Part shown: piece after piece, positions 39,620-56,168 of the stretch
Layout of the letters: each line of letters opens with the position of its first letter
How positions within the stretch are numbered: the first letter of the stretch is position 1
Assembly (NCBI RefSeq): GCF_964204645.1
Contig: NC_134026.1
Location: 10,055,450 to 10,119,449 of the forward strand
DNA length: 64,000 nt
Direction of reading: 5' to 3'
Source: Tubulanus polymorphus
Lineage: Eukaryota; Nemertea; Palaeonemertea; Tubulaniformes; Tubulanidae
The notes under the pieces: generated by a model
What the model was told of the DNA's origin: nothing
The model's input: only the letters and a program-made list of their open reading frames with translations
Databases searched by the model: none
Made by a program: the position numbers and the translations under genes

Positions 39620-40200
39620 TCAGTGCTATCCTCTACTGCGGACGCGATGAGAATTTAGTCGTTGAAGATGGACTTGAACGTCGCAATATGTAATCGAAGT
39701 TTTGAAACCATTTGCAGGGCGGGGACATCACGTTTACTGTGATCGATTATATAGCTCCATTCCTCTTGCTGAAAACCTTTATAAAAAGGGGTTTCATTAC
39801 ACCGGAACAATAATGCTAAATCGAGTTGGCATCCCAGCGGAAATAAAATATCCAACGAGGATGCGTGTCGGTGATGTTGTCGCTTATCGTAGTGAGAATA
39901 CGTTGCAACTAAATTGGAGAGATAAGCGCGTTGTCTCCATGATTTCGTCATATGGAAAGGGAACTGAAATCGAAGAGATTTCTGTTCGACGCGATCCAAC
40001 AAAAAAAGTAAAAAAGCCTAGTGTCATTGTGGATTATAATAATCATATGTCGGGCGTTGACAAACACGATCAGCTCAATAAATATCATGAATCCACACGT
40101 AAGACCGTGAAGTGGTGGAAAAGGATCTTTTTTTGGCTCTTAGAAAGTTGCGTCACGAATTCGTATATTCTTTACAAACTGCACAGAGGATTTCAGATCA
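39620..40200 (+). pseudogene. piggyBac-like transposase C-terminal half (copy 2)
   Basis: Starts inside the catalytic domain with YCGRDENLVVEDGLERRN. After a stop at about 39691 the frame is shifted, and from 39702 it is open for 181 codons: GRGHHVYCDRLYSS (second Asp), a basic segment, LNWRDKRVVSMISSYG (third Asp) and VDYNNHMSGVDKHDQLNKYH, then KWWKRIFFWLLESCVTNSY. The first catalytic Asp and the N-terminus are missing. Sequence differs from copy 1, so this is another lineage. It is flanked by inverted CACCAGGGGGCG words (39525 and 40257), part of the neighbouring repeat family. Confidence 0.85.
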
Positions 40201-40892
40201 GAATTATATCAGAATTTCAATTTTGTTGTTGTTTTCATCAATTTTAATTTTTGCAGCGCCCCCTGGTGTCTAAAAACCATATGTACCCAAGAAGGATGTC
40301 ACTGTTCTCTGAGATAATCAATCACACCTGAAATGAGCTGAAAAGGAATTCAATAGGAGGCAGAACAAACTGAGGAAATGGAAGGAGGCAGTTATTGTTC
40401 AGAGGATATTGTGACCCTTAGATGACCTTTGAATTTTGGGGGATTTGACCCCCGTAACATATCAAAACACAACCCCAAACCATGGATTTTTCTTCTAAAT
40501 GTCTTTTTGAATATTTTTGAATATATATCTCTAATTTCTTTTAGAAGTATTACATAGTAAATATATACTGCAAAATTTTACTGTTTTGAGGGGTCTACTT
40601 GACCCCCCATAGACCCCAAGACCCCAAATTGAATTTTTGAAAATAATATTCTGGTAGCTGAGGTCATAAGCTCCAAGAAAATTATAACTATTATTATGCT
40701 ATTTCCATTAGAACGACTGCAATAAGGCTTTGAAAAAAAATACTAAAAAATTGTTCTAAAACAATGAAACTAATTCATCACAGCTGAATACCATTAATCA
40801 ATAATATATTCAACACGGAAAGAGTTAACACGCATTTTTTTCAACAGGGCTAAAAATCATGTTTTACAGCACAGTGATCTACTTGTTTTTCA
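40201..40892. other. No gene recognised
   Basis: AT-rich with CCCC-rich words (GACCCCCGTAAC, GACCCCCCATAGACCCC). Starts with the inverted CGCCCCCTGGTG word that mirrors 39525. Confidence 0.4.
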
Positions 40893-42315: not shown

Positions 42316-42448
42316 ATTGATGAAATAACAGGTGTTAATATAATCTGCTCTGATCAAAAGGATCTTACAGGAGAAACATTATCCACACAGCCTCAATCAA
42401 CCAAAACCGTCTCATTTAAATGAAATCTATGATGATGATGTTATAGCT

Positions 42449-43463
42449 GTGGGTAGCTCCATACACCACACCTCACTAGTTTACATACCTCTAGAAAACG
42501 TTCAGTGTTTATCATTATGCTCTATTCTAGACATACCAACTCGATCTGTTATAGGTATTCCAATGGCTGAACTTGGATATGACAGTATGCCTGCTTATAC
42601 TGGACCGCTAGGCTCACCATGCAGTACCCATAAGATAAAAGGTGAAGGTAACTGTTTTTTCAGAGCTATCTCTTATTCTATCTGTGGTACTGAAAACTAT
42701 CACAGGGTAATACGTACAAAAGTAGTAAACCACATGAAACACAATGCAGAGAGGTTTCAACCCCATTTGAGAAATGCAGATATTACTGTAGAGCAATATA
42801 TTGAAGCATCCCAGATGAAATACGTACAGATATGGATGGGCGACTTAAGTTGAAATATTGGCCACAGCTGATTTACTGCATATAGATATCTATACGCATA
42901 TAGATGACAAATGGCAACAATTTTCGGATTCAGTTTTAGCCACTGTAAAACATCAATATGAATCCAATGGTAATATTTATCTTAGAAACAGTAGTGGTAT
43001 GCACTATGAGGTTGTTGTGTGCGTAAACTGTTCTGATGTATATGATAAAGTATGCGCATGGTGCGGGAACGAGTATAATTCAATGAATTATGCCACCGAT
43101 AACAAACGTGAAGATCAAATCAGGAACAGGAAATCAGTCAAAAGGCGTTATGATAATCAGCGCTATCGGCAGGATAAAATGTATCGCAACAAGATGATAA
43201 CGTATGCATCTCTAAAATATGAGAACGATGAATCTTATCGCCAAAACCAAAACACAGGGAAAAAAATGAAGTACAGTAGCAGTTTGGAATTCCGCCAGCA
43301 GATGAAATTTAATACTGTTAAGAAATACCACAATGATCGTAACTATTGTAATACTCTGAAAAGGAAAGCCGCTATGAACTATAAACAGAGAATGATGAAT
43401 TTCGAAACCAGGAGAAAGCGTTCAGTATACAGAAATATAAAAGTGACTCTCAGCATCGAGACC
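42449..43463 (+). pseudogene. Helitron-associated OTU domain protein and basic Tyr-repeat region
   Basis: HKIKGEGNCFFRAISYSICG is the OTU catalytic start (Cys in GNC; the usual Asp is Glu). The frame shifts at about 42845 and continues ADLLHIDIYTHIDDKWQQF and GMHYEVVVCVN, the end of the OTU fold with its His. Next comes CAWCGNEY and a tail of repeats with a Tyr every 10-15 residues (KRRYDNQRYRQDKMYRNKM). The protein is cut at 43463 by the P-like element. The same sequence restarts at 53557. Confidence 0.7.
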
Positions 43464-44116
43464 ATGGACGTATAAACTAGAAGGAAGGCGCACCATTCAT
43501 CAAGATCAAAGGCCCCGCTGATAACAGCTGTTTGCACTGTATTTGCAAGTGCCCGTTGAACAGGTGCGCGTTGTTACTAGCAACCGCCTAGCGTCTCGGT
43601 ATAAAGGAAGCGGTGTATGGGGATGCGCAAGCGCAATAGAAGCTATTAATGTGCGTAATAGATGTGCGCAGTCGTCGCAAAAAGAAAGATGGCTTCGTGC
43701 TCGGCGTTTGAGTGAAAATTTTTCGAGAATACGTCAATTTTTTGCGAAACTACAGCAGATTAACTTATGGAAGCATATGATGACATTTTTTAAATATAAG
43801 GTGAATATAATGTCTAATTTCTCATAGTCACACTCTTTTCCTCTGTTTGTGAATTATACATTTAAATGAAGAAAGAGTCCATCGTATCGATCCAAATGGT
43901 TTACACGCCAAATTGTAGAAATTTCAATCAGAAAATTGATCAGTTTTGGTTATTCTACCGTCCATGTTATGGATTTTTGAAGAGAAATGATCACCTTTTC
44001 TCAACATAATCAGTAGCCTTCTTTATTATTTCAATGTTTTCCTATCTTAAACTGTCATAATTTACCTCTAAATTGTTTCTATTTTTCCAGACTTCAGACT
44101 ATATAAAAAACGAGCA

Positions 44117-47100
44117 ATGGATACGGAATGTTTAGCGCAAAGCTCAATAAAAATTGGTAGGTGACCTGTAAATCATCAAATCCATGGTATGAAAGTTATT
44201 ACCACTTATCAGGCATTTCAGAATTTTGATTTCATTTATTTTAGAGAAACATCGACAGAATCTGAGCTCCATTTGTCGACTGTGCAGGCAACACTTCGAA
44301 TGTGGCGGAGGGATTGATGTGAATGATAAGCGTTATGCGACAATCATTCAGGAATTCTTAAATATTACCGCTGCGGAAGATGGAAATGTTTTTCCGAGTT
44401 GTTTTGCAGCAAGATTTGTCGTAGGAAATTGGATCGTGCAAAAAAGCCAAGAAAAACAGAAGTACTGCAGTTTCGTGAACATGGTTCGGACTGCACAATT
44501 TGCGACTCGATGCATGAGGAGGTATCGGTGGAAGAACTAAAAGCCATTGCGGAGAGGAATAACTTTCACCATCAACGTAATGATGATGGATCACTATTTT
44601 TTCAGTTGTCAGCTAGTTTTCAGCGGTTGGAAATCAGTGTATTTTTGATGAATGATATGACTTGAACTATTAAAATCAGGGAAAGCGATTGTACGAATAG
44701 TGAGCTGTTTTCTGCACAACCGAAAATTATGACAACTTTTTCATTCGCGGAATTTTTGTGTGCGTTAAGATCATTTTATATTTGCTCTGGAAATGCTGAT
44801 TTTAAAGAACTATGCGAACAACAGAAAGTAGGAGAAGCTGGTATTTTCTTATCTCGCGAGAACAAAGTGACTACATTTGAAGAAATAAATTTCGATACAG
44901 AATCAACGGTGCGGCATATTTCGTGTTCGATGCTATTGAAGGAAAAACCTGGCAGATGTATTTACTGTGAACTGTATAGACCAAACTTGTTTTTGATGAA
45001 TTCGCAATTATCAAACAAACCTGCTGCTCCTGGATTACACCGTCGAAATGATAATTTGCCAAAGGCTACTTTGATTTCAAAATGTAAAAATATTCAAAAA
45101 GAGAAAGCGTCTCTCAAAAGAAAATTGAAAAACCTTGAGGAACAGGTGAAAAACAGAATGGAAAAAGATGGTATTTGTGTGAACAGTGAATTATCAGAGA
45201 GTTTGACCACCGTACTGAAATTGAACAAGGAATCTATATCAAGCTTACATGAAGAATCTCCTCAGCAAATCCTGTGGGAGCAACAAGCGGGCAATGAACT
45301 GGCACCCTGTACTCATTAAATGGTGTATTTCCCTGGCATACAACTCGTCATCTGCCTATGAACTATTGCAATCATCGCCATTTCTGAACTTGCCGCATAG
45401 AACTACATTGAGGGATTATACTCATCTTTGGAATAGTGTCTCTGGTGTCAATTTTTACCTCATCAACCAAATAAAGAATGAATTGAATTTTCATAATATG
45501 AAAGACTACTAAAAATGTGTGTCACTCGCCTGCGATGAAGTTAAGATCAAAGATGGTCTTGTTTACAGCCCAGAAACTGGCGAATTATTAGGATTTTGCG
45601 ACTTGGGCAACTTAAACAATGAACTTGCCACATTTTCGAATAGCTGCAAAGAAGAGGTAATTAATGTGAAGCCATTGCAACACACGTCATGGTATTTATG
45701 ATTCGTGTTTTATTTACTGAAATCCATAGCGTAATCGCCCATTATCCATGCGTCGGTTTTGACAGTAACCAGATATTTTGGGCGATACAAAGAGTGCTGC
45801 AAGCCGTTGAACTGTCTGGTTTTCTCGTAAAATCTTACCTTTGCGATGGTGCATTACCAAACAGACATTTTTTCAAACTACACCACGACATTGAACTTCA
45901 TGGCGATGGACCAGCATTTTGTACTCCCAACCCGTATCGTTCTGGATCAATGATATATGATATATCTGATCCATCGCACCTGATGAAAACGACGAGGAAC
46001 AATTGGGATGTCACAATTCTGGATGGCACAATAAAACAAGGAATTTAACGGTTAGTATTATATACAATTGAATTATTAATTGAATTATTAATCAAAATAT
46101 ATATTAATGTATTTTCATATTTATTATAGTTCAATGGTCAAGGAATTAAATGGCAGCAGCTCGTGTCCGTCGTAGAATGTGATGCAGGCATAGATGCTTT
46201 CGGCAAGGGAAATGCAGGAGGTCTTCGAATGCTGAGCAAAATTACGATGGACCATTTGCGATTCACACCTTCATTACGAATGAAAGTAAAACACGCTGTT
46301 CAGGTAAGAATGAACTGATTTTTCTTCAGTGATTTGAACAAGTAATCATTCAAATGTTTAAAAAGGTTTTCAATTTCTTTAAAGGTTCTGAGCCAGTCAG
46401 TTGCAGATGCATATGAAATATTTGACAGATTCAAGGATAGCACCAAATCGACGCGTAAATTTGTTTCGTATATGGACACTTTCTTTGATTGTTTAAATGC
46501 ATTCAAGACTGGATCAGCGGAAAAAATCCAAAAAAATAACAACAGTACCCTATCATAGAACGGATGACTGGCGTTTATCAATGAATAAGGTTTTAAAGCT
46601 CTGATATTCATCTAAGTTCTGAAATAGGAAAGAACTTTTTATCATTTCCAGTGGCTCGAAGAAGATTTCTTGCAATTCCTAGAGAACTGGCAAAGCCAAA
46701 GTCTGGCTCGTGATGATTTGACAAAAACAGAGAAGAGTCGCCTGTGCTTAAGTCAGCAAACACTAGAAGGATTTCAAATTACTGGTAATGACATATTTAT
46801 TTGAGACATACTTAAACAAAATTTACATTTACAACATATCATAAATATCTAAATTTTAGTTAAGTCGTTTGTACGCCTGACTCGAGAATTGGTGCTTGAA
46901 CCAGAAGTGCAGTTCTTTTTGAGTGGAAAGTTAAGCCAAGAGCCCCTGGAGATTTATTTCAGCAGACAGAGAGTTTGTGGAGGCAAACATGAAAACCCGA
47001 ACGTGCTCGATTTTCGGCAGAAAAATACTTGTCGCTGGGTCGAAAGCAATTCATGGATCGCCATATGGCAACTGCCAAGTCGACGATTACTCAGTAACGG

Positions 47101-47137
47101 ACGAAATCGATCTTCAACGAAGAAATCGAAGAAATGA
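44117..47137 (+). pseudogene. P-element-type transposase, multi-exon, inactivated
   Basis: A short first exon (MDTECLAQSS, donor at 44156) joins in phase to 44245 onward. Residues 20-80 form a zinc cluster (ICRLCRQHF, VFPSCF, CSKICRRKL). Then come SPQQILWEQQ, LPHRTTLRDYTHLW, the catalytic SLACDEVKIKDGLVYSPETG, LCDGALPNRHFFKLH, DPSHLMKTTRNNW and, across introns (acceptors near 46130, 46383, 46650 and 46860), WQQLVSVVE, WLEEDFLQFLENW, LSQQTLEGFQITG and EPLEIYFSRQR. These segments in this order are characteristic of the P superfamily RNase H-like transposase. It has shifts near 44400, 45285 and 45690 and stops at 44663, 45510 and 46046, so it is dead. Confidence 0.85.
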
Positions 47138-48850
47138 TCACTAAGTATGTTTAATAATCTGATTTCTGCCGTTTTAACCTATGTTCTGGGAAGCACTTAA
47201 ACTTTTTCGAAGGCTTTTCTCCTTTGTTGCACCTGTTTTTGGGTTCAATTTCTGTTTCACAAACACGTATGAATTGACAAATCCTTTCATTCGAATTCAT
47301 ATCCAGCACCGAATAACTTGTTTTAGCATATATGTTTTCAATTCATCATTAACTAGGGGTGCTGATATGGAATTCCACGAGAACAGTATTGCCCGGTCAC
47401 TTAGTACAGTATCTTCAAGGATTTTTTTAACATTTCCTTTAACAGATTTACTGCATTTGATGTGGCAAGCAGTGGTTTTATTTTCAGTTGTAACAATTTG
47501 AAAAATTGATAAACACTGTCATTTACACAGAATAGTCCACCACGATTACAAATATCAATCAGTTGTTTAGTATAGTCGAGAAATGATGATGCACTTGAAA
47601 TATCTTCAGTTCTCCAAGAGGCAAAAAATGTTGCATAATTTGCCGCCATAACAGAATTCTCCTTTTTTGTTGATTTATAGCCTATGTAACGTTTTTTTAA
47701 GTTGAGATGCAACATATCCAGCTACATAACGAATAACTTGTTCTTCGTTTTTTTCTAGCTCAAACTTTGGTAGCTCTGGAGAAATAACAGCAGTTTCATT
47801 TTTTGTTTTCATTATGCGTTCCAACACTCCTAAGACATTAATAACAAATAGGCATTGATAACAAATGTTTTCTTTTCTAATTTTAGTTGATGACTATCAA
47901 AAAATATGCAGAACTCGGTCATGAAGTTGACATTGTGAATAAGCTTCAAATATGCTGTGCAGCTCTTGTAGTAGTCATTTTCACCCGGTATTCGCTTCTT
48001 CTCGACAAACAGACTTTTAACCAAATTATATATATAAGGAACAATTACTTTCAGCAAATTTTTTTGTCGTAGAGTTCTCATAATCACTTTGGAACAATGT
48101 ATATAATAGTTTCACATCAGCGCTGTATTCTATGTCGAGCTCACACATACCATCAAGTTTCATTGACAGAAGACCATCTCTTAGCATTTTTAAGGAGTCC
48201 ATGGTTGCACTGTCTTGATATGCTGATTCCGGTGCTGTAATTTAAATAATACATGTATATTAATCTTTCAAATTTTGTTAATAATGTATAGATAATAGAA
48301 TATAAGGAAGAATTAATCTTAATTCTTATATATTAATTCTTGTATATCTATCTTTCAAATTTTGTTAATAGTTTATACATAATAGAATATAAGGAAGAAT
48401 TGATCTTTAAAATACCTGTTTTCTTAACTTGAATGTTTTCCGGGCTTTTATTCGAGTGGATTGCATCGACGACCTCACTGAGCGCGGCTAAGTTGTTAAA
48501 ACCTGAAAAAATTGTATTCCGTTAGTGATCAAAGAAAAAATGAATGACAGTCAAAAATATTGAAATACAATAGATACCTCTGGAACATTGACTGCTGCAA
48601 TAACATTCACCACCGGGACCAAATGCACTGTCTTCAAAGCAAGCTACCAGAAAAGCTGACCCACATTTTTGACATATGACTAATTCGCTGTTCTTGCCAC
48701 AGTTGCACTTGAATGAGGTTCCCGCAGTGCACCTCAGGCATGCGAGTATTACAGATGGCGCGCACAACAGCGGGTCGTGTTGTACATTGTTATTGTATGT
48801 AAACGCTGTAGACCTATAGTACTGGTACAAACGATTTCTTTTAATAAATA

Positions 48851-50934
48851 ATGAGTGAGCAAAATAGTAGATATGCGAATCTGACACTAGCCGAGATAAA
48901 AAAAGAACTACGAAAAAGGAATATCAAAGTGTCTGGCCGAAAAAATGACTTAGTTGAGAGGTAAATGGATTTTTATTGGGCATGTTTACATTTTCAATTT
49001 ACTTCCGGGTTTATGCACCGGTATTCTGTTCCTAATATAATGTTTATTGAAATGAGTAATTTATCTTAAATGAGGTGTTATTCAGATGTTATTTTCTAAT
49101 ATGAGAACGTTATTGAATATATTTATATTAGATATCGCAAAAATAGGTCTGTTGTTTATTTTTTCAGACTACTTTTCCATGACAGAACTGCGTCTAATGA
49201 TGAGCCTGATGTGGAATACCACATGACAATACCAGATTTACCTTCTTTCAAGGATTTACATTCTGGAGACAAAAATTATATAAACCTTGATAAGAGTACA
49301 GTTATTGACTACTTTAGATGCTACAAAAAGGAATATGACCTTAAGTTTGAAGATCTGTATAATGAAAGGTAATTTAATAATATTCATAGAATTAAAAATT
49401 AAATGTTTACATGCTTATGGGCCTGTCTAAGATAAACACGTAGTTAAACTTATTTTGAAATATCATTTCAGGTACATAAGATATGCTCGAATTGCTTTCG
49501 AACAAACGGATGACACAGATGATGACAACAATTTCATTTATATAACATCAAATGTTTGGGCAGAAATGCGGAAATCTGTCTCTTACAAGGTCGACCTGCT
49601 ACTAACTAAGGAGGGAGGCATAGAAGAGACACAGTGTGAATGTGCTGTTGGCCAAGGACCGACAGCACATTGCAAGCATGTTGGATGTGTACTATATGGA
49701 TTGACATGCTTTTCTGAAAATTCAGAAATCTTAACTGAATTGACATGTACTCAGGTATGTATTTCTTCCTTTTTTGATTGGAGTTAATATTTTTTGAAGG
49801 GTATTTGACAATTTTATATTTTTGCCACAACTGATGGAAATTTCATTCTTTTCAGGTGCTTCAAACCTTCCACAAGGCTAAGCCTCTCAAGGGATCCCCA
49901 GTGAAGGCTTGCAATCTGGCAGCCATACGCGGGAAAGAAAATCCCCCAGTGGTTTTTGATCCAAGACCAACCAAATGGCGTAATGTTGGAACGACCGAAC
50001 AGAATCTCAGGAATTCAGTAATCAATTATCAAGCCCTCCACCCCAGCCATCGATTACCAGTCCTAAATTTATTTCCACCAGCCAATTTACGTGCTTGTGA
50101 CCATGACTACATGAAGCAAACCATGGAAGAAGATTTTCTACAAAAAATCAAAGTAAGTACAATTTGATTAAAAATTAATAGCACCTATGGCGTGTAGTTA
50201 TCTTTAATAGAATAAAACATGTTTTACATAAGAAATGTAATTCTTAATTTTAGGTCTCATCTATAACTGCTGACGATATCATAGACATTCAGTCAAAAAC
50301 AAAATTACAATCTTCTAGCAAATTGTGGAAAGAACAAAGACAATACAGAATAACATCATCTACATTTGGAACTATATGCAAGGCAACTGAAAGAAGGGAC
50401 ATCGAAAAATTACTTAACTCATTATTTGGCGATACAGAATTTACTTCATTAGCAACGAATCATGGCAAGAAATATGAAAATGTAGCTGTTAGAAAATTTG
50501 AAGCAGAAACCGGGAAAACTTCAGATTCATGCGGTATTTTTGTTTCAATCGAACGCCCCATGTTAGCCGCTTCTCCTGATCGTATTCTCAATTCAAATGC
50601 TGTGATTGAAGTTAAATGCCCATTTAGCGCAAGACAATTAAAAATCACTCCAAAATCTGTACCTTATTTATACATTAAAAACACTGGAGAACTAAGCCTA
50701 AAGGAAACTCATGATTACTATTATCAAATACAAGGCCAGTTGTATTGTACAGAAAGAAAATTATGTAAATTTGTAGTTTATACACTGAAAGATATGAAAA
50801 TTATTGATGTGAATTATGACCAAGAATTTATAAACAGCATGCTTCTTAAATTAGATGATTTTTATGTAAAGTTCTTTAAACCAGCATTGATTGAAAGATT
50901 CTTTTACCATTGTGAATCGAAATACAATTTCTAA
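48851..50934 (+). CDS. SAP-SWIM-YqaJ nuclease of the ISL2EU element, intact
   Basis: Five exons, 48851-48960, 49168-49368, 49472-49754, 49856-50152 and 50254-50934, all with GT/AG borders and matching phases: 523 residues without a break. Residues 9-37 (LTLAEIKKELRKRNIKVSG) are a SAP DNA-binding motif. A SWIM zinc finger has its Cys at about 159 and 161 (CEC) and ligands at 171 and 173 (CKH). Residues 320-510 are a YqaJ/lambda-exonuclease-type PD-(D/E)xK domain: RITSSTFG, GKKYE, SPDRI (Asp about 406), VIEVKC (Glu about 416, Lys about 418) and YYYQIQGQLYC. All metal-site residues are present. It probably processes DNA ends during transposition; that is inference. The start lies 136 bp from the element's left end. 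Confidence 0.9.
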
Positions 50935-50991
50935 AAAGTATAAATACATGTACATGAAAATTATGTCTTATTTTCTGGCTCTTAAACTTTT

Positions 50992-52646
50992 TCAGGCATC
51001 TCTCGGAACTATAGCCGACTTAAAGTTACATAAGAAAAAGCATACACTTATAATGGGATCTGCTAGTTCGGAGTCTGTATTGTTCATAGGCTGCTTTAGG
51101 ATTTTGAATGTCTTTGCCAGTCCTATCACTCTTTCGACTTGTACTCTTTTACTCGCAATTTTTCTGTCTTGTAGTACTGATGAGGCTGACATTCTATTTT
51201 TTTTCTTAAAAAATTCTGGGATATTGATGGCGACATTTACTGGAACGAATAAATCTTGCATGTTAAACCCTTTGTCAGCCATTATCGAATCTCCAGGGTC
51301 ACAGATTTGTAGGAGATTGCTACGCTCACAAATCTGTCGGTCACTCGCTGATCCACCATAAATGTCTGACACAAAACTGACCATCCCACCCGGAGTTACG
51401 CCTATCAGAGCCTTAACTGTATTTCGGTTTTTATATGTTGAGTATGTTGCTTGCTGGCCAACCGGTTGTTTCGGCTTCATTATTGGACACTCGGTGCCAT
51501 CGATAACAACTCTGGTGGTAGGATACTTGCGCCTGAAATCTACTGGCGAGTAGAATTTTACAATGTCTCGTGATGGCCACCAATTTATCTCCTTGAAATG
51601 CAAGTGTAAGAAATTTATCCATGTCACAAATATGTTCTTTACTTCTTTCTCAGAGCATCCAAACATAAGAGAAAGTTCATAATGTGGCCGAGCCAACCTT
51701 AACTTTGTAAGTGTTAGAAAGAACTGGTCCTCAATCGCTAATGGAGGTTTATTTTGATAATAATATCTCAGTTCATTCACAACTTGGCCAAATGATCCCA
51801 ATAAAAATCGAAAGAATTCATAACTGTTCATTCCTGTATAATAATGGAATGCCTCATCATTAAACATATAGTCCGAAGCCTTCATTCCCGGTTTTTTTTC
51901 AGTTTGCGTCATTACTTCCACAGTTGATACTTCTTCTGTTTGAATGAAAACTGAGCTTGTTTTTGAAGTCTCACCTGAAAAATTCAATTTAAAGTTCTAT
52001 GAAATCCAATTTCTATTCCAACTTCAAGATTAATGTAATTTGAATCAAAATGAATTATCCATAAATTATAATACTGTTTGCAGGTAAGTATAAATCAAAA
52101 TTTATTAAACCCACCTTCTTCAAAAGTTTCGACCTCTATTTCTATAGGCTCACATTCAGTCTGCCAAGATATAAGGGCTTCCATCTCGCGCTTTTCTTCT
52201 AATTTCTGTCTTTTATATGCTCTTTCCTTTCTCTCTGACAGAGACACATTTGGTGTTTTTTCCAAGAGAAAATGTGTGGGACCGCACCTGGTTTTAAGAC
52301 TTGATGTACAACATCATTCCCTGAAAAATAAAATACAAATGATGAATTCATCACAGACAATATAGCCTAAATAAATATTAATTTACGAATTTATTTACAA
52401 TAATTTACAAAAAATACACCATTTGAAACTGACTACAGAATTAAAACACCATAGTTGCATATCCTACCTTCTTTAGTGCTCCGAATATAATCATGTACGT
52501 CAAAATGTAATTTACATACTTTAGCCCACTTGCCAGGTTGCCATTTTCACTGCTAATATCCACTTTTGTCGTAATTCTAAATCTTTTGATGGAAATTGGT
52601 GACCTCCTTTACCGTTGCACAAAGGCACCGAACAATATATTGGCAT
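50992..52646 (-). pseudogene. THAP-DDE transposase of the ISL2EU element, one frameshift
   Basis: Exons 52468-52646, 52115-52320 and 50992-51975. Exon 1 is a THAP zinc finger: MPIYCSVPLC, FPSKDLELRQKW, then after a one-base shift near 52540 KWAKVCKLHF. Exon 2 is basic and probably disordered (SERKERAYKRQKLEEKREME). Exon 3 is an intact DDE_Tnp_4 domain of about 328 residues: LTLTKLRL, WINFLHLHF, RVVIDGTECPI (first Asp), STYKNRNTVKALIGVTPGG, DSIMADKGF (second Asp), RVQVERVIG (Glu). Apart from the THAP shift everything is in frame, so loss is recent or the shift is a sequencing error. It ends 57 bp from the convergent nuclease gene. Confidence 0.85.
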
Positions 52647-53311
52647 TTTGACAGAATTTGAACTATTATCATGAGAAATTTCTATAGAATTCTATATTGA
52701 TGTGTTCAAGGAACCTCAGTTTACACATGAACCGTATCGTGGCGGCATCTAGTGGCAATTATGTGATACATTTCTTGGAATTTCTAGGATCTATATTGAA
52801 TTCTACTAGATCTAGTATATACTGCATCTATAGTTAAGCGACCCGCTGTTATGCGCGCCATCTATCGTGATAGCTGGATTGACGGGAACCTCATTGGCAC
52901 TCTATATTCGTTTTGGTTGTAATCTCGAGATTGAACGTATCTTGGCCAATAAATTGAGTGAAGTCCTGTTCAGAATAATTGCACAAAGTGTCTTCCAAGT
53001 CATCTAAAATTTGATCTAAACCAACCGCCATCATCGAATGTCTAAAACTGACAGCGTAACCAAGGATATACGTCAACGAACTGACATCGGATTTCAGCGG
53101 AATTAACCGATTATGCCCGAAGCTATTCCGGAAATAACCGGACATTACCGATCACAGCCGCAGCTACACGCATCCGCGCGCAGGTAGATGGGATTACGTT
53201 ATAGACAGAGATGTGTGAAGTGTTTACTCTGCGCTGACAAGTAGCGTCAGAAATACAGTTGATTCCTTTGAACCAGGCTGGTGCGCCCTCCTTCTAGTTT
53301 AAACGTCCATG

Positions 53312-53552
53312 TCCACATTACGTGGAGTCATTTTGATTTTATAGTCATCGATATAGAAATCGATTTAGTTCAATGTATCGTGGCTTTGTTTGATTCTATT
53401 TGACTGTAATAGCTGAAAAAAACGTCTTAAACTGCAACAATTTATCAAAAGGACATCAAGACTCAAGCCTCGTCTTTGTGCCCTTTTTTGGGACAGTGCC
53501 CTTCAGAAGATTGGTGAACCCAGCCCTTTCAGAAATCCTGTATCCGCCCCTG
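53312..53552. mobile_element. hAT-like 3' end fragment
   Basis: The right edge reads, on the minus strand, CAGGGGCGGATACAGG, a typical hAT-type terminus. No left end is present. It fills the gap between the P-like element's right repeat and the restart of Helitron sequence at 53557. Confidence 0.5.
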
Positions 53553-53556
53553 CAGG

Positions 53557-56168
53557 ATGATGAATTTTGAAACCAGGAGAAAGCGTTCAGTATACAGAAA
53601 TATAAAAGTGACTCTCAGCATCGAGACCAAGTCAGGATATACAGTATTGCAAAATATCAGAATGACACTTAGCATCGAGACCAAGTTAAGACGTACAGTA
53701 TTGAGAAATATTGAAAGGACATTCAGCATCAAGAAAGGGTCAAATGCTACAGCATTGACAAATACAAAACTAATTTGGACCATCAACATATTGTGAAGGC
53801 CCGCAGTATAGATAGGTATGCACACGACCCGATATTCAAAAATACTATCAAAGGCCAAAATAATTTGAGGCGGGAAAATGAAAAGGTGAAGAAATTGGAC
53901 GTCAATTATGTCATATCAATATTTCGGGACACAGCAAAGAGAGACCCTGAATATGTATGTGCTGTTTGTCAACGTCTACTTTTTCAAAATCAAGTGAAAA
54001 GATTGGATGTTAGCATGTATAGTACTCGCAGTTCCAAACACTCAGCTGTTGCGCGAGAATTTATAACAAATACCTATCTACATACATGTAGCAATACTTG
54101 CTCTCAGTCATGTACCTTGAAAGGGAAAATCATGGATATGTCATTGTTGCCACAGTAAATTACTGTCAGCTATAGTACCTTGTAAAGCTGCTGTTAATAA
54201 CTTGCAATTAGAAAGTATTCCCGATACGCTTACACAACTGAATTCGCTAGAAGTTCATCTCGTTTCAATTAACATACCATTCATTAAAATGATAGCTTTA
54301 CCGAAGCAAGGTCAGCACGGATCTCATGGGCCAGTCGTATGTGTACCGAGCAATGTAAAAAAAAAACAACGACATATTACAGCGAAATTATTCGGATGAT
54401 CAAATGATGAAGGTCAAATTGAAACGAAAACTTACATTCAAAGGACATAACAAGTATTAATTCGTTGAGCAGAAAAAGATAATGGATGCGTTGTGTACAT
54501 TGAAATCAATTAATCCACATTATCGTGATGTGAAATTAAACTATGAGTGGAATAACCCATTTGAAGAAGTCACTGAAGATCTGAGAGAGAATCACTTGAG
54601 GATGAGATATTAGATACAGAAACAATTGAAACTGAAGAACTGCCCGATCTTGACAACAATTCCACAGCACAAGGACAAAACGATGTCAACTGCCAGGAAG
54701 AAACTGATGTCAAAATCTGCATGGAATGTACATGAATTCCTGCCTGCAACCAATTAATATCGGCCAGGAAATTCTTGACGCACATTTCAATGACATTTTG
54801 TGTGTGGCTCCTGCTGAAGATGATAGCCCAATAAAGATTTTGACTGATACTGAGAATGAGGCCAGGTGTATCCCCACTCTCTTTCCGACCGGTAGATTTA
54901 CATATCATGATATTCGAGGACACAGGATTACTTTATCACGCTACTTACACACACGTTTAATGAATGCCGACCCCAGATTCTCGCGAAACAGATTACATAT
55001 TTTATGCACAGTTTTTGTCTGAAATCAACCAGGTCAACTCAAATGTCTCAATTGCATTGCGGAAAGGAGTGAAAGATGGTAAGAAAAGTTTGAATATTGA
55101 CTTGAATACTTTGAAAAACATTGAAAATATGAACGAATTGTTGAAACATAATGACGGTTATAAGTTTTTAAAACCTATCAGAGGAACCTATCTGGGAAGC
55201 TGCTCAAAAAGACTTGCTGGCTTAGACAATTAGGTGTGCCAACATTCTTTGTGTCATTCTCTGCAGCTGAAATGAGATGGGAGGACCATTTAGAGGCTAT
55301 AATGCGAGTTGATGGTTGTGATAAGCCAGTAAGAGACATGTCATGGTCCGAGAAATGTGGTATATTGAGACGAAACCCAGTAATTGCAGCCAGGATGTTT
55401 GATCATAGATTTCGTACGTTCCTTAACACTGTTATCAAGTCCCCTGCACAACCTATTGGTGAAATAAGGGACTACTTTTATCGGGTGGAATTCCAGATGC
55501 AGAGCAGCCCACATGTACATGCTTTGATATGGGTAAAAGATGATGACGTTGATGGCACTGAGTTTGTAGATAGATACATAACCTGCAGATTGCCTGAAGA
55601 ATCCGAAGATCCTGAATTGCATGAGGTTGTCACCAGTGTCCAAATGCATAGTAAAAGACATTCTAAAACATGTCGTAAAAAAGGTACTGTATGCAGGTTC
55701 AATTTCCCCAGAAATCCATCCCTACAAACATTTCTAACTCAGATGAAATATGAAGCCCCTCCAACAAGCGATGAACCAGATGAAGAAATTCAGCAAATAC
55801 AACATGATGCAGCTATGAATGCAATGACCCCAGCTAGAGCTAAAGAGATACTTGGAACTGTGTGGAAAATGATGAATACAGAGGGAACTGAGTTAACAAC
55901 AACAGAATCATTATTCAGATCAATTGGTATCACACAGGATATGTTTGAAGAAGCCTTTTGTAGTTTATTGCGTAAAAGTGGTGTCGTGTTGAAAAGAGAA
56001 CCAAATGAATGTTGGGTAAATCAATACAATCCTGCATTATTGAGAGCCTGGCAAGCAAACATGGACATCAAATGTGTGACTGATGCATTCGCATGCGTAG
56101 TATATATTGAAAATACATCAAAGCGAAGGGACATCGCGCCAGAGAAGATGACGAAACTGGTATTCTGA
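53557..56168 (+). pseudogene. Helitron Rep (HUH) protein, C-terminally truncated and broken
   Basis: Continues the Helitron: the first 73 bp repeat 43392-43464, then the Tyr-repeat tail, VCAVCQRLLFQNQVKRLD, LEVHLVSINIPFIKMIALP, VVCVPSNV, EARCIPTLFPTGRFTYHD and, from 55236 in one 310-codon frame, FFVSFSAAEMRWED, DYFYRVEFQMQSSPHVHALI (HUH motif), the Cys/His KTCRKKGTVCRFNFP segment and NPALLRAWQANMDIK. The tyrosine motif that should follow is lost (VVYIENTSK) and the helicase is absent. Several stops between 54158 and 55233 show it is inactive. Confidence 0.85.

Follow-up and report, generated by a model that had tools for sequence, protein, structure and literature searches.

Structure of the locus

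The window, by which we mean the whole 64,000-nucleotide stretch of Tubulanus polymorphus DNA that was analysed, contains three mobile elements that very probably lie one inside another. A Helitron-like host sequence is present in two parts, with a P-superfamily-like element (hereafter the outer element) between them, and the outer element holds an ISL2EU-type DNA transposon (the inner element). Both the outer and the inner element have a transposase and a second gene, and the inner element interrupts what appears to be the first coding exon of the outer second gene. The features are collected in Table 1.

Table 1 Features of the three elements, with positions in the window and profile matches where these define the feature.
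Feature	Position	Strand	Remarks
Host mobile element, left part, Helitron-like	42344..43462	+	OTU domain
Outer P-superfamily-like element	43463..53311	.	ends CATGGACGT; holds inner element
Outer transposase, catalytic half	45665..47137	+	TNP-like RNase H N- and C-terminal parts; in-frame stops
Outer second gene, remaining exons (predicted)	47401..48503	-	weak Tnp_P_element_C match (E 0.011, 16.8 bits, cut-off 22.6)
Outer second gene, putative split first coding exon, downstream half	48578..48714	-	zinc cluster, then phase-1 donor at 48577; splice predicted from sequence
Left AT target-site duplication	48713..48714		target A/AT/T
Inner ISL2EU-type DNA transposon	48715..52892	.	4178 bp; TIR GAGGTTCCCG
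Inner second gene	48843..50934 (approximate; exons predicted)	+	SAP, Cys/His cluster, YqaJ nuclease
Inner transposase, main ORF	50992..51996	-	DDE_Tnp_4 (E 1.6e-39), HTH_Tnp_4 (E 1.2e-12)
Inner transposase, N-terminal region, THAP-like	52473..52652 (approximate)	-	split over two frames
Right AT target-site duplication	52893..52894
Outer second gene, putative split first coding exon, upstream half	52895..53145	-	first ATG 53145
Host mobile element, right part	53557..56168	+	Helitron_like_N (E 2.9e-18); starts with 73-nt repeat of 43392-43464

Inner element

Ends. On the left, GCACTTGA and an AT precede the first bases of the element, GAGGTTCCCG; on the right the element closes with CGGGAACCTC, followed by AT and TGGCACTC. 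The ends form a perfect 10-bp terminal inverted repeat, and a subterminal inverted repeat (48753-48777 and 52839-52863) is 96% complementary over 25 nt. Both boundaries and the AT duplication bear out, to the base, the AT-flanked 4178-bp element and the exact insertion point proposed in the initial annotation. As a control for chance we counted AT-flanked perfect 10-bp inverted repeats spaced 2-6.5 kb apart: three occurred in 45001-56000, and 200 block shuffles averaged 0.56. Because 84 of the 200 shuffles contained at least one such repeat, the 10-bp repeat is not decisive alone, and the case for the boundary combines it with the 25-bp subterminal repeat, the internal coding content and the similar ends of a relative, L069 (C4:14780817-14784645). 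That relative has AT followed by GAGGAACCC, a spacer and a second inverted repeat, with AT at its other side too; it starts GAGG and its flank is A/AT/A. A DNA search of the genome with the inner element gave 19 rows, comprising the window at full length and 18 partial matches, none of which (0/18) covered either end of the element. The insert was judged by eye not to be an intron, the junctions not being GT-AG.

Genes. The first part of the transposase N-terminal region matched the Pfam THAP family below its cut-off (E 0.0011, 20.2 bits against 23.9) and the second part had no THAP match in Pfam. Since this region is divided between two frames, the inner transposase is probably broken. The second gene matched YqaJ (E 6.3e-19, 69.2 bits against a cut-off of 22) and SAP (E 2.8e-11), and its Cys/His exon had no Pfam match. 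Published ISL2EU elements, in the available portions of PMC4482050 and PMC9179366, have AT duplications in A/AT/T, encode a transposase of the DDE/HTH/THAP type and carry YqaJ in their second ORF. The inner element shares with this group of PHIS (PIF/Harbinger-ISL2EU-Spy) the 2-bp AT duplication in A/AT/T, the DDE and HTH transposase, with a possible THAP remnant, and the YqaJ gene, which supports its earlier designation as ISL2EU-type. Its length is also near the published mean of ~4840 bp (PMC4482050, available text). It differs in starting GAGG, as does L069, where ISL2EU TIRs usually start GG (same source, available text), and in the apparent frameshift in its THAP-like part. The SAP domain and Cys/His cluster of its second gene are unmentioned in those portions of the ISL2EU descriptions that were accessible.

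Outer element

Without the insert, the outer element (43463-48714 plus 52895-53311) comes to 5669 bp by arithmetic from its ends, in agreement with the 5.67 kb given previously. These ends, which begin CATG, were set by short internally deleted copies, both ends being present in four of nine stretches (L050-L053). The flanking 7-bp duplications were exact in L050 (GTCGAAT), L052 (GTTTGAC) and L053 (CTTATAC) and matched at 6/7 positions, with one difference, in L051 (GTTTGAT/GTTTGAC); one end of L050 was mutated. No 7-bp duplication was present at the window's own copy, which has TCGAGAC on the left and TCCACAT on the right. The outer transposase matched TNP-like_RNaseH_N above the cut-off (E 1.4e-6) and RNaseH_C just under it (E 5.5e-5, 23.5 bits against 24), and its in-frame stops indicate that this copy has decayed apart from the insert. 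Three N-terminal ORFs of the decayed copy had no THAP match, and for that reason we call the element P-like and not P.

The P superfamily (P element, 1360, Galileo, Pdre2/THAP9) is recognised by RNase H transposase domains, a 7- or 8-bp duplication and a THAP domain in the transposase. The first two were found here, the domains in the outer element and the duplication in its short copies, not in the window copy. Galileo, a member of that superfamily, makes 7-bp duplications like those of the short copies (PMC4168063, available portion), and the ends start CAT like those of Pdre2 (CATACC). Together, the CATG ends, the 7-bp duplications of the short copies and the TNP-like RNase H transposase uphold the initial annotation's P-like label. 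In contrast to those known members, the outer element has a further gene, convergent with the transposase and with a PHD-like finger, and no THAP was found in the three ORFs.

The second gene and its paralogs

We hand-collated 17 second-gene loci, the window included, from 21 search rows, four of which were the second row of the same locus. A transposase match lay on the opposite strand, convergent and 0.57-1.46 kb away, at 14/17 loci, again counting the window, and C1:20251634, C4:10891139 and C10:9144475 had a second gene without a transposase partner. The 14 convergent loci are not independent: the two on C4 are duplicates, and those at C2:12.8/13.9 Mb and on C6/C8 look alike in the tables. 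Loci of P-like elements carrying the second gene include C3:14262-14265 kb and C2:10541-10548 kb. With its convergent position kept at this many loci and its reading frames partly open, the second gene is more than an ORF arisen by chance. One further copy, at C10:9144328-9146848, is split by ~1.5 kb within its coding region and possibly represents another nested insertion.

Read as DNA, the first coding exon of paralogs L075, L076 and L077 consists of M, ~30 aa and a PHD-like finger; in L078 the first Cys is lost and the ATG lies in another frame. A putative phase-1 glycine donor (G before GT) after the last Cys is common to the window and L075-L078. When the first exon of L075 served as query, a single open frame was found at 6/6 of the matched places listed. 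The L075 finger matched PHD in Pfam only below the cut-off, and the 348-aa second-gene ORF of L075 had 0 matches in a PDB search up to E 10. No finger exon was seen in the three fetched stretches upstream of the second genes on C7, C2 (16.9 Mb) and C6 (L079, L080 and L081). We found no description of a second gene in P elements in the accessible portions of the literature searched, which was without most subscription journals and Repbase Reports, and this absence is no evidence that the gene is unpublished.

The putative exon across the insert

Taking out the insert together with one AT leaves a single open frame on the minus strand that runs through ...NIECQ-FKCNCG.... The joined flanks hold a minus-strand ORF that is 149 codons long from stop to stop and includes NIECQFKCNCGKNSELVICQKCG, consistent with the previous report of a frame restored as ECQ then FKCNCG. 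When left ATs at 48600-48829 were paired with right ATs at 52780-52999, 18 of 375 pairs gave a spanning ORF that was as long or longer (149 codons or more), so the restored frame alone is a coincidence at the ~5% level and moderate evidence. Comparison with the paralogs makes the ATG at 53031 the likelier start of the joined exon. The left flank of the insert has only FK ahead of the cluster's first Cys, and therefore an exon of the paralogs' shape must extend past the insert. The window's zinc-cluster ORF had no Pfam family, and its finger, aligned by eye, is without the usual His.

Sequence similarity to L075, L076 and L077 across the junction was not significant in a shuffle test. The window's score against these three paralogs, respectively, was reached by 771, 478 and 427 of 2000 shuffles for the N-terminal piece, by 451, 583 and 288 for finger against finger, and by 215, 407 and 176 for the joined against the whole exon, so the N-terminal similarity is no better than chance, and the joined exon scores only slightly higher. 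The window and paralogs have in common a motif, [YF]S..DF, that occurred in 1037/200000 shuffles of the N-terminal piece and was picked after being seen. What the paralogs contribute is indirect and comes from exon structure and not from sequence similarity. That structure and the joined frame support the initial annotation in naming a minus-strand exon of the P-like element's second gene as the target.

Search for uninterrupted copies

The initial annotation had treated an uninterrupted copy as the decisive test, and neither DNA nor protein searches, which score best candidates only, found a copy spanning the insertion site in the 268-Mb assembly. Given that scoring, the result does not prove that a spanning copy is absent. 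None of 15 fetched DNA stretches matching the outer element crossed the junction, and a protein search with the joined exon returned the window's own two halves only. The DNA matches were either short internally deleted copies or two mutually duplicated copies on C4. The latter (~85% identical) match the outer element no further than the equivalent of 47752 and lack recognisable outer ends; compared with one another, they are inverted duplicates at 96.7%. By the rule set in that annotation, whereby either missing contiguous copies or unrelated flanks counted against the claim, this result is half a refutation; we attribute it to copies that are few and mostly deleted rather than to unrelated flanks.

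Alternative explanations

The inner element might truly end at the 25-bp repeat, at 48757-52859, with the outer 10-bp repeat accidental. That repeat is the longer one, has AT on both sides and would give the GG start usual for ISL2EU in the available text of PMC4482050. Excising 48757-52859, however, leaves a stop and an ORF of only 87 codons, versus 149, and L069 likewise has a 10-bp GAGG-type end outside its second inverted repeat. A GATAGATGGC-type motif also lies ~95-105 bp inside both ends of L068 and L071, and inside one end only of L072. We consider these inner boundaries very unlikely. It is somewhat easier to imagine, though still improbable, that the insertion is real and 52895-53145 was never coding. 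The target would then be an intron close to the zinc-cluster exon, or the 5' region, and the frame would be open across the join by coincidence. The equally long spanning ORFs from 18 of the AT pairs would fit this, as would the non-significant N-terminal similarity to paralogs. The exon structure argues otherwise: start codon and finger share one exon in the paralogs, and since FK alone precedes the first Cys in the window's left flank, such an exon has to run on past the insert. The shared [YF]S..DF motif points the same way, with the post hoc choice noted above. Least credible of all is an assembly artefact. The junctions are known from assembled sequence, in which the inner element could have been wrongly joined, but a misjoin would not produce exact ends, duplicate AT and restore the frame at both junctions.

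We favour, with high confidence, a three-level nest in which an ISL2EU element is inserted in the first coding exon of the P-like second gene, inside a Helitron-like element. The P-superfamily-like element (43463-53311) would sit within the Helitron-like one, and the ISL2EU element would then have entered AATT in that exon by cut-and-paste, duplicating AT and bringing a minus-strand stop right behind codon CAA. Transcription of the second gene would converge with that of the transposase, and the second gene's first exon is predicted to comprise a short N-terminal stretch and the PHD-like zinc cluster.

The nested insertion itself is ordinary; the more promising lead is the two-gene P lineage. 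We tentatively suggest, as an idea open to considerable doubt, that the outer element represents a P-superfamily lineage not yet described, in which the genes for a transposase and for a conserved partner protein converge. The partner, with its PHD-like finger at the N-terminus, might attach to chromatin and either guide transposition or license it, and the ISL2EU insert would be a natural knockout of the partner gene. The nest is of use mainly for annotation: it establishes where both elements end and shows that the outer second gene has to be read through the insert. Should a partner gene be routine in P-type elements outside flies and fish, a question about their targeting or regulation would become testable.

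Host element and relative age

The host matches Helitron_like_N and OTU, as do Helitron-like elements with an OTU domain, and it may belong to the Helentron/Helitron2 branch. A 73-nt direct repeat of host sequence (43392-43464 and 53557-53629, 72/73 identical) flanks the outer element. Two other host copies, L065 and L066 (left part ~93% identical), are without the P-like element and run from the equivalent of 43460-43464 into that of 53569-53588 via a 54-bp tandem array. The initial annotation had held that the locus shows the relative age of the two transposons. This stands insofar as the inner insertion would postdate the outer element's sequence; the composite may have moved here afterwards, as one, since both outer ends are still present.

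Between the outer right end and the host repeat lies a 239-bp filler (53315-53553) that is 98% identical to C1:19934231-19934468, which suggests repair with copied DNA. The 54-bp tandem repeats occupy 53588-53734 in the Helitron-like host gene, with more copies in L065 and L066. Further upstream, a plus-strand ORF at 39678-40247 reads ...MSGVDKHDQLNKYHESTRKTVKWWKRIFFWLLE... and presumably resembles a piggyBac-type transposase.
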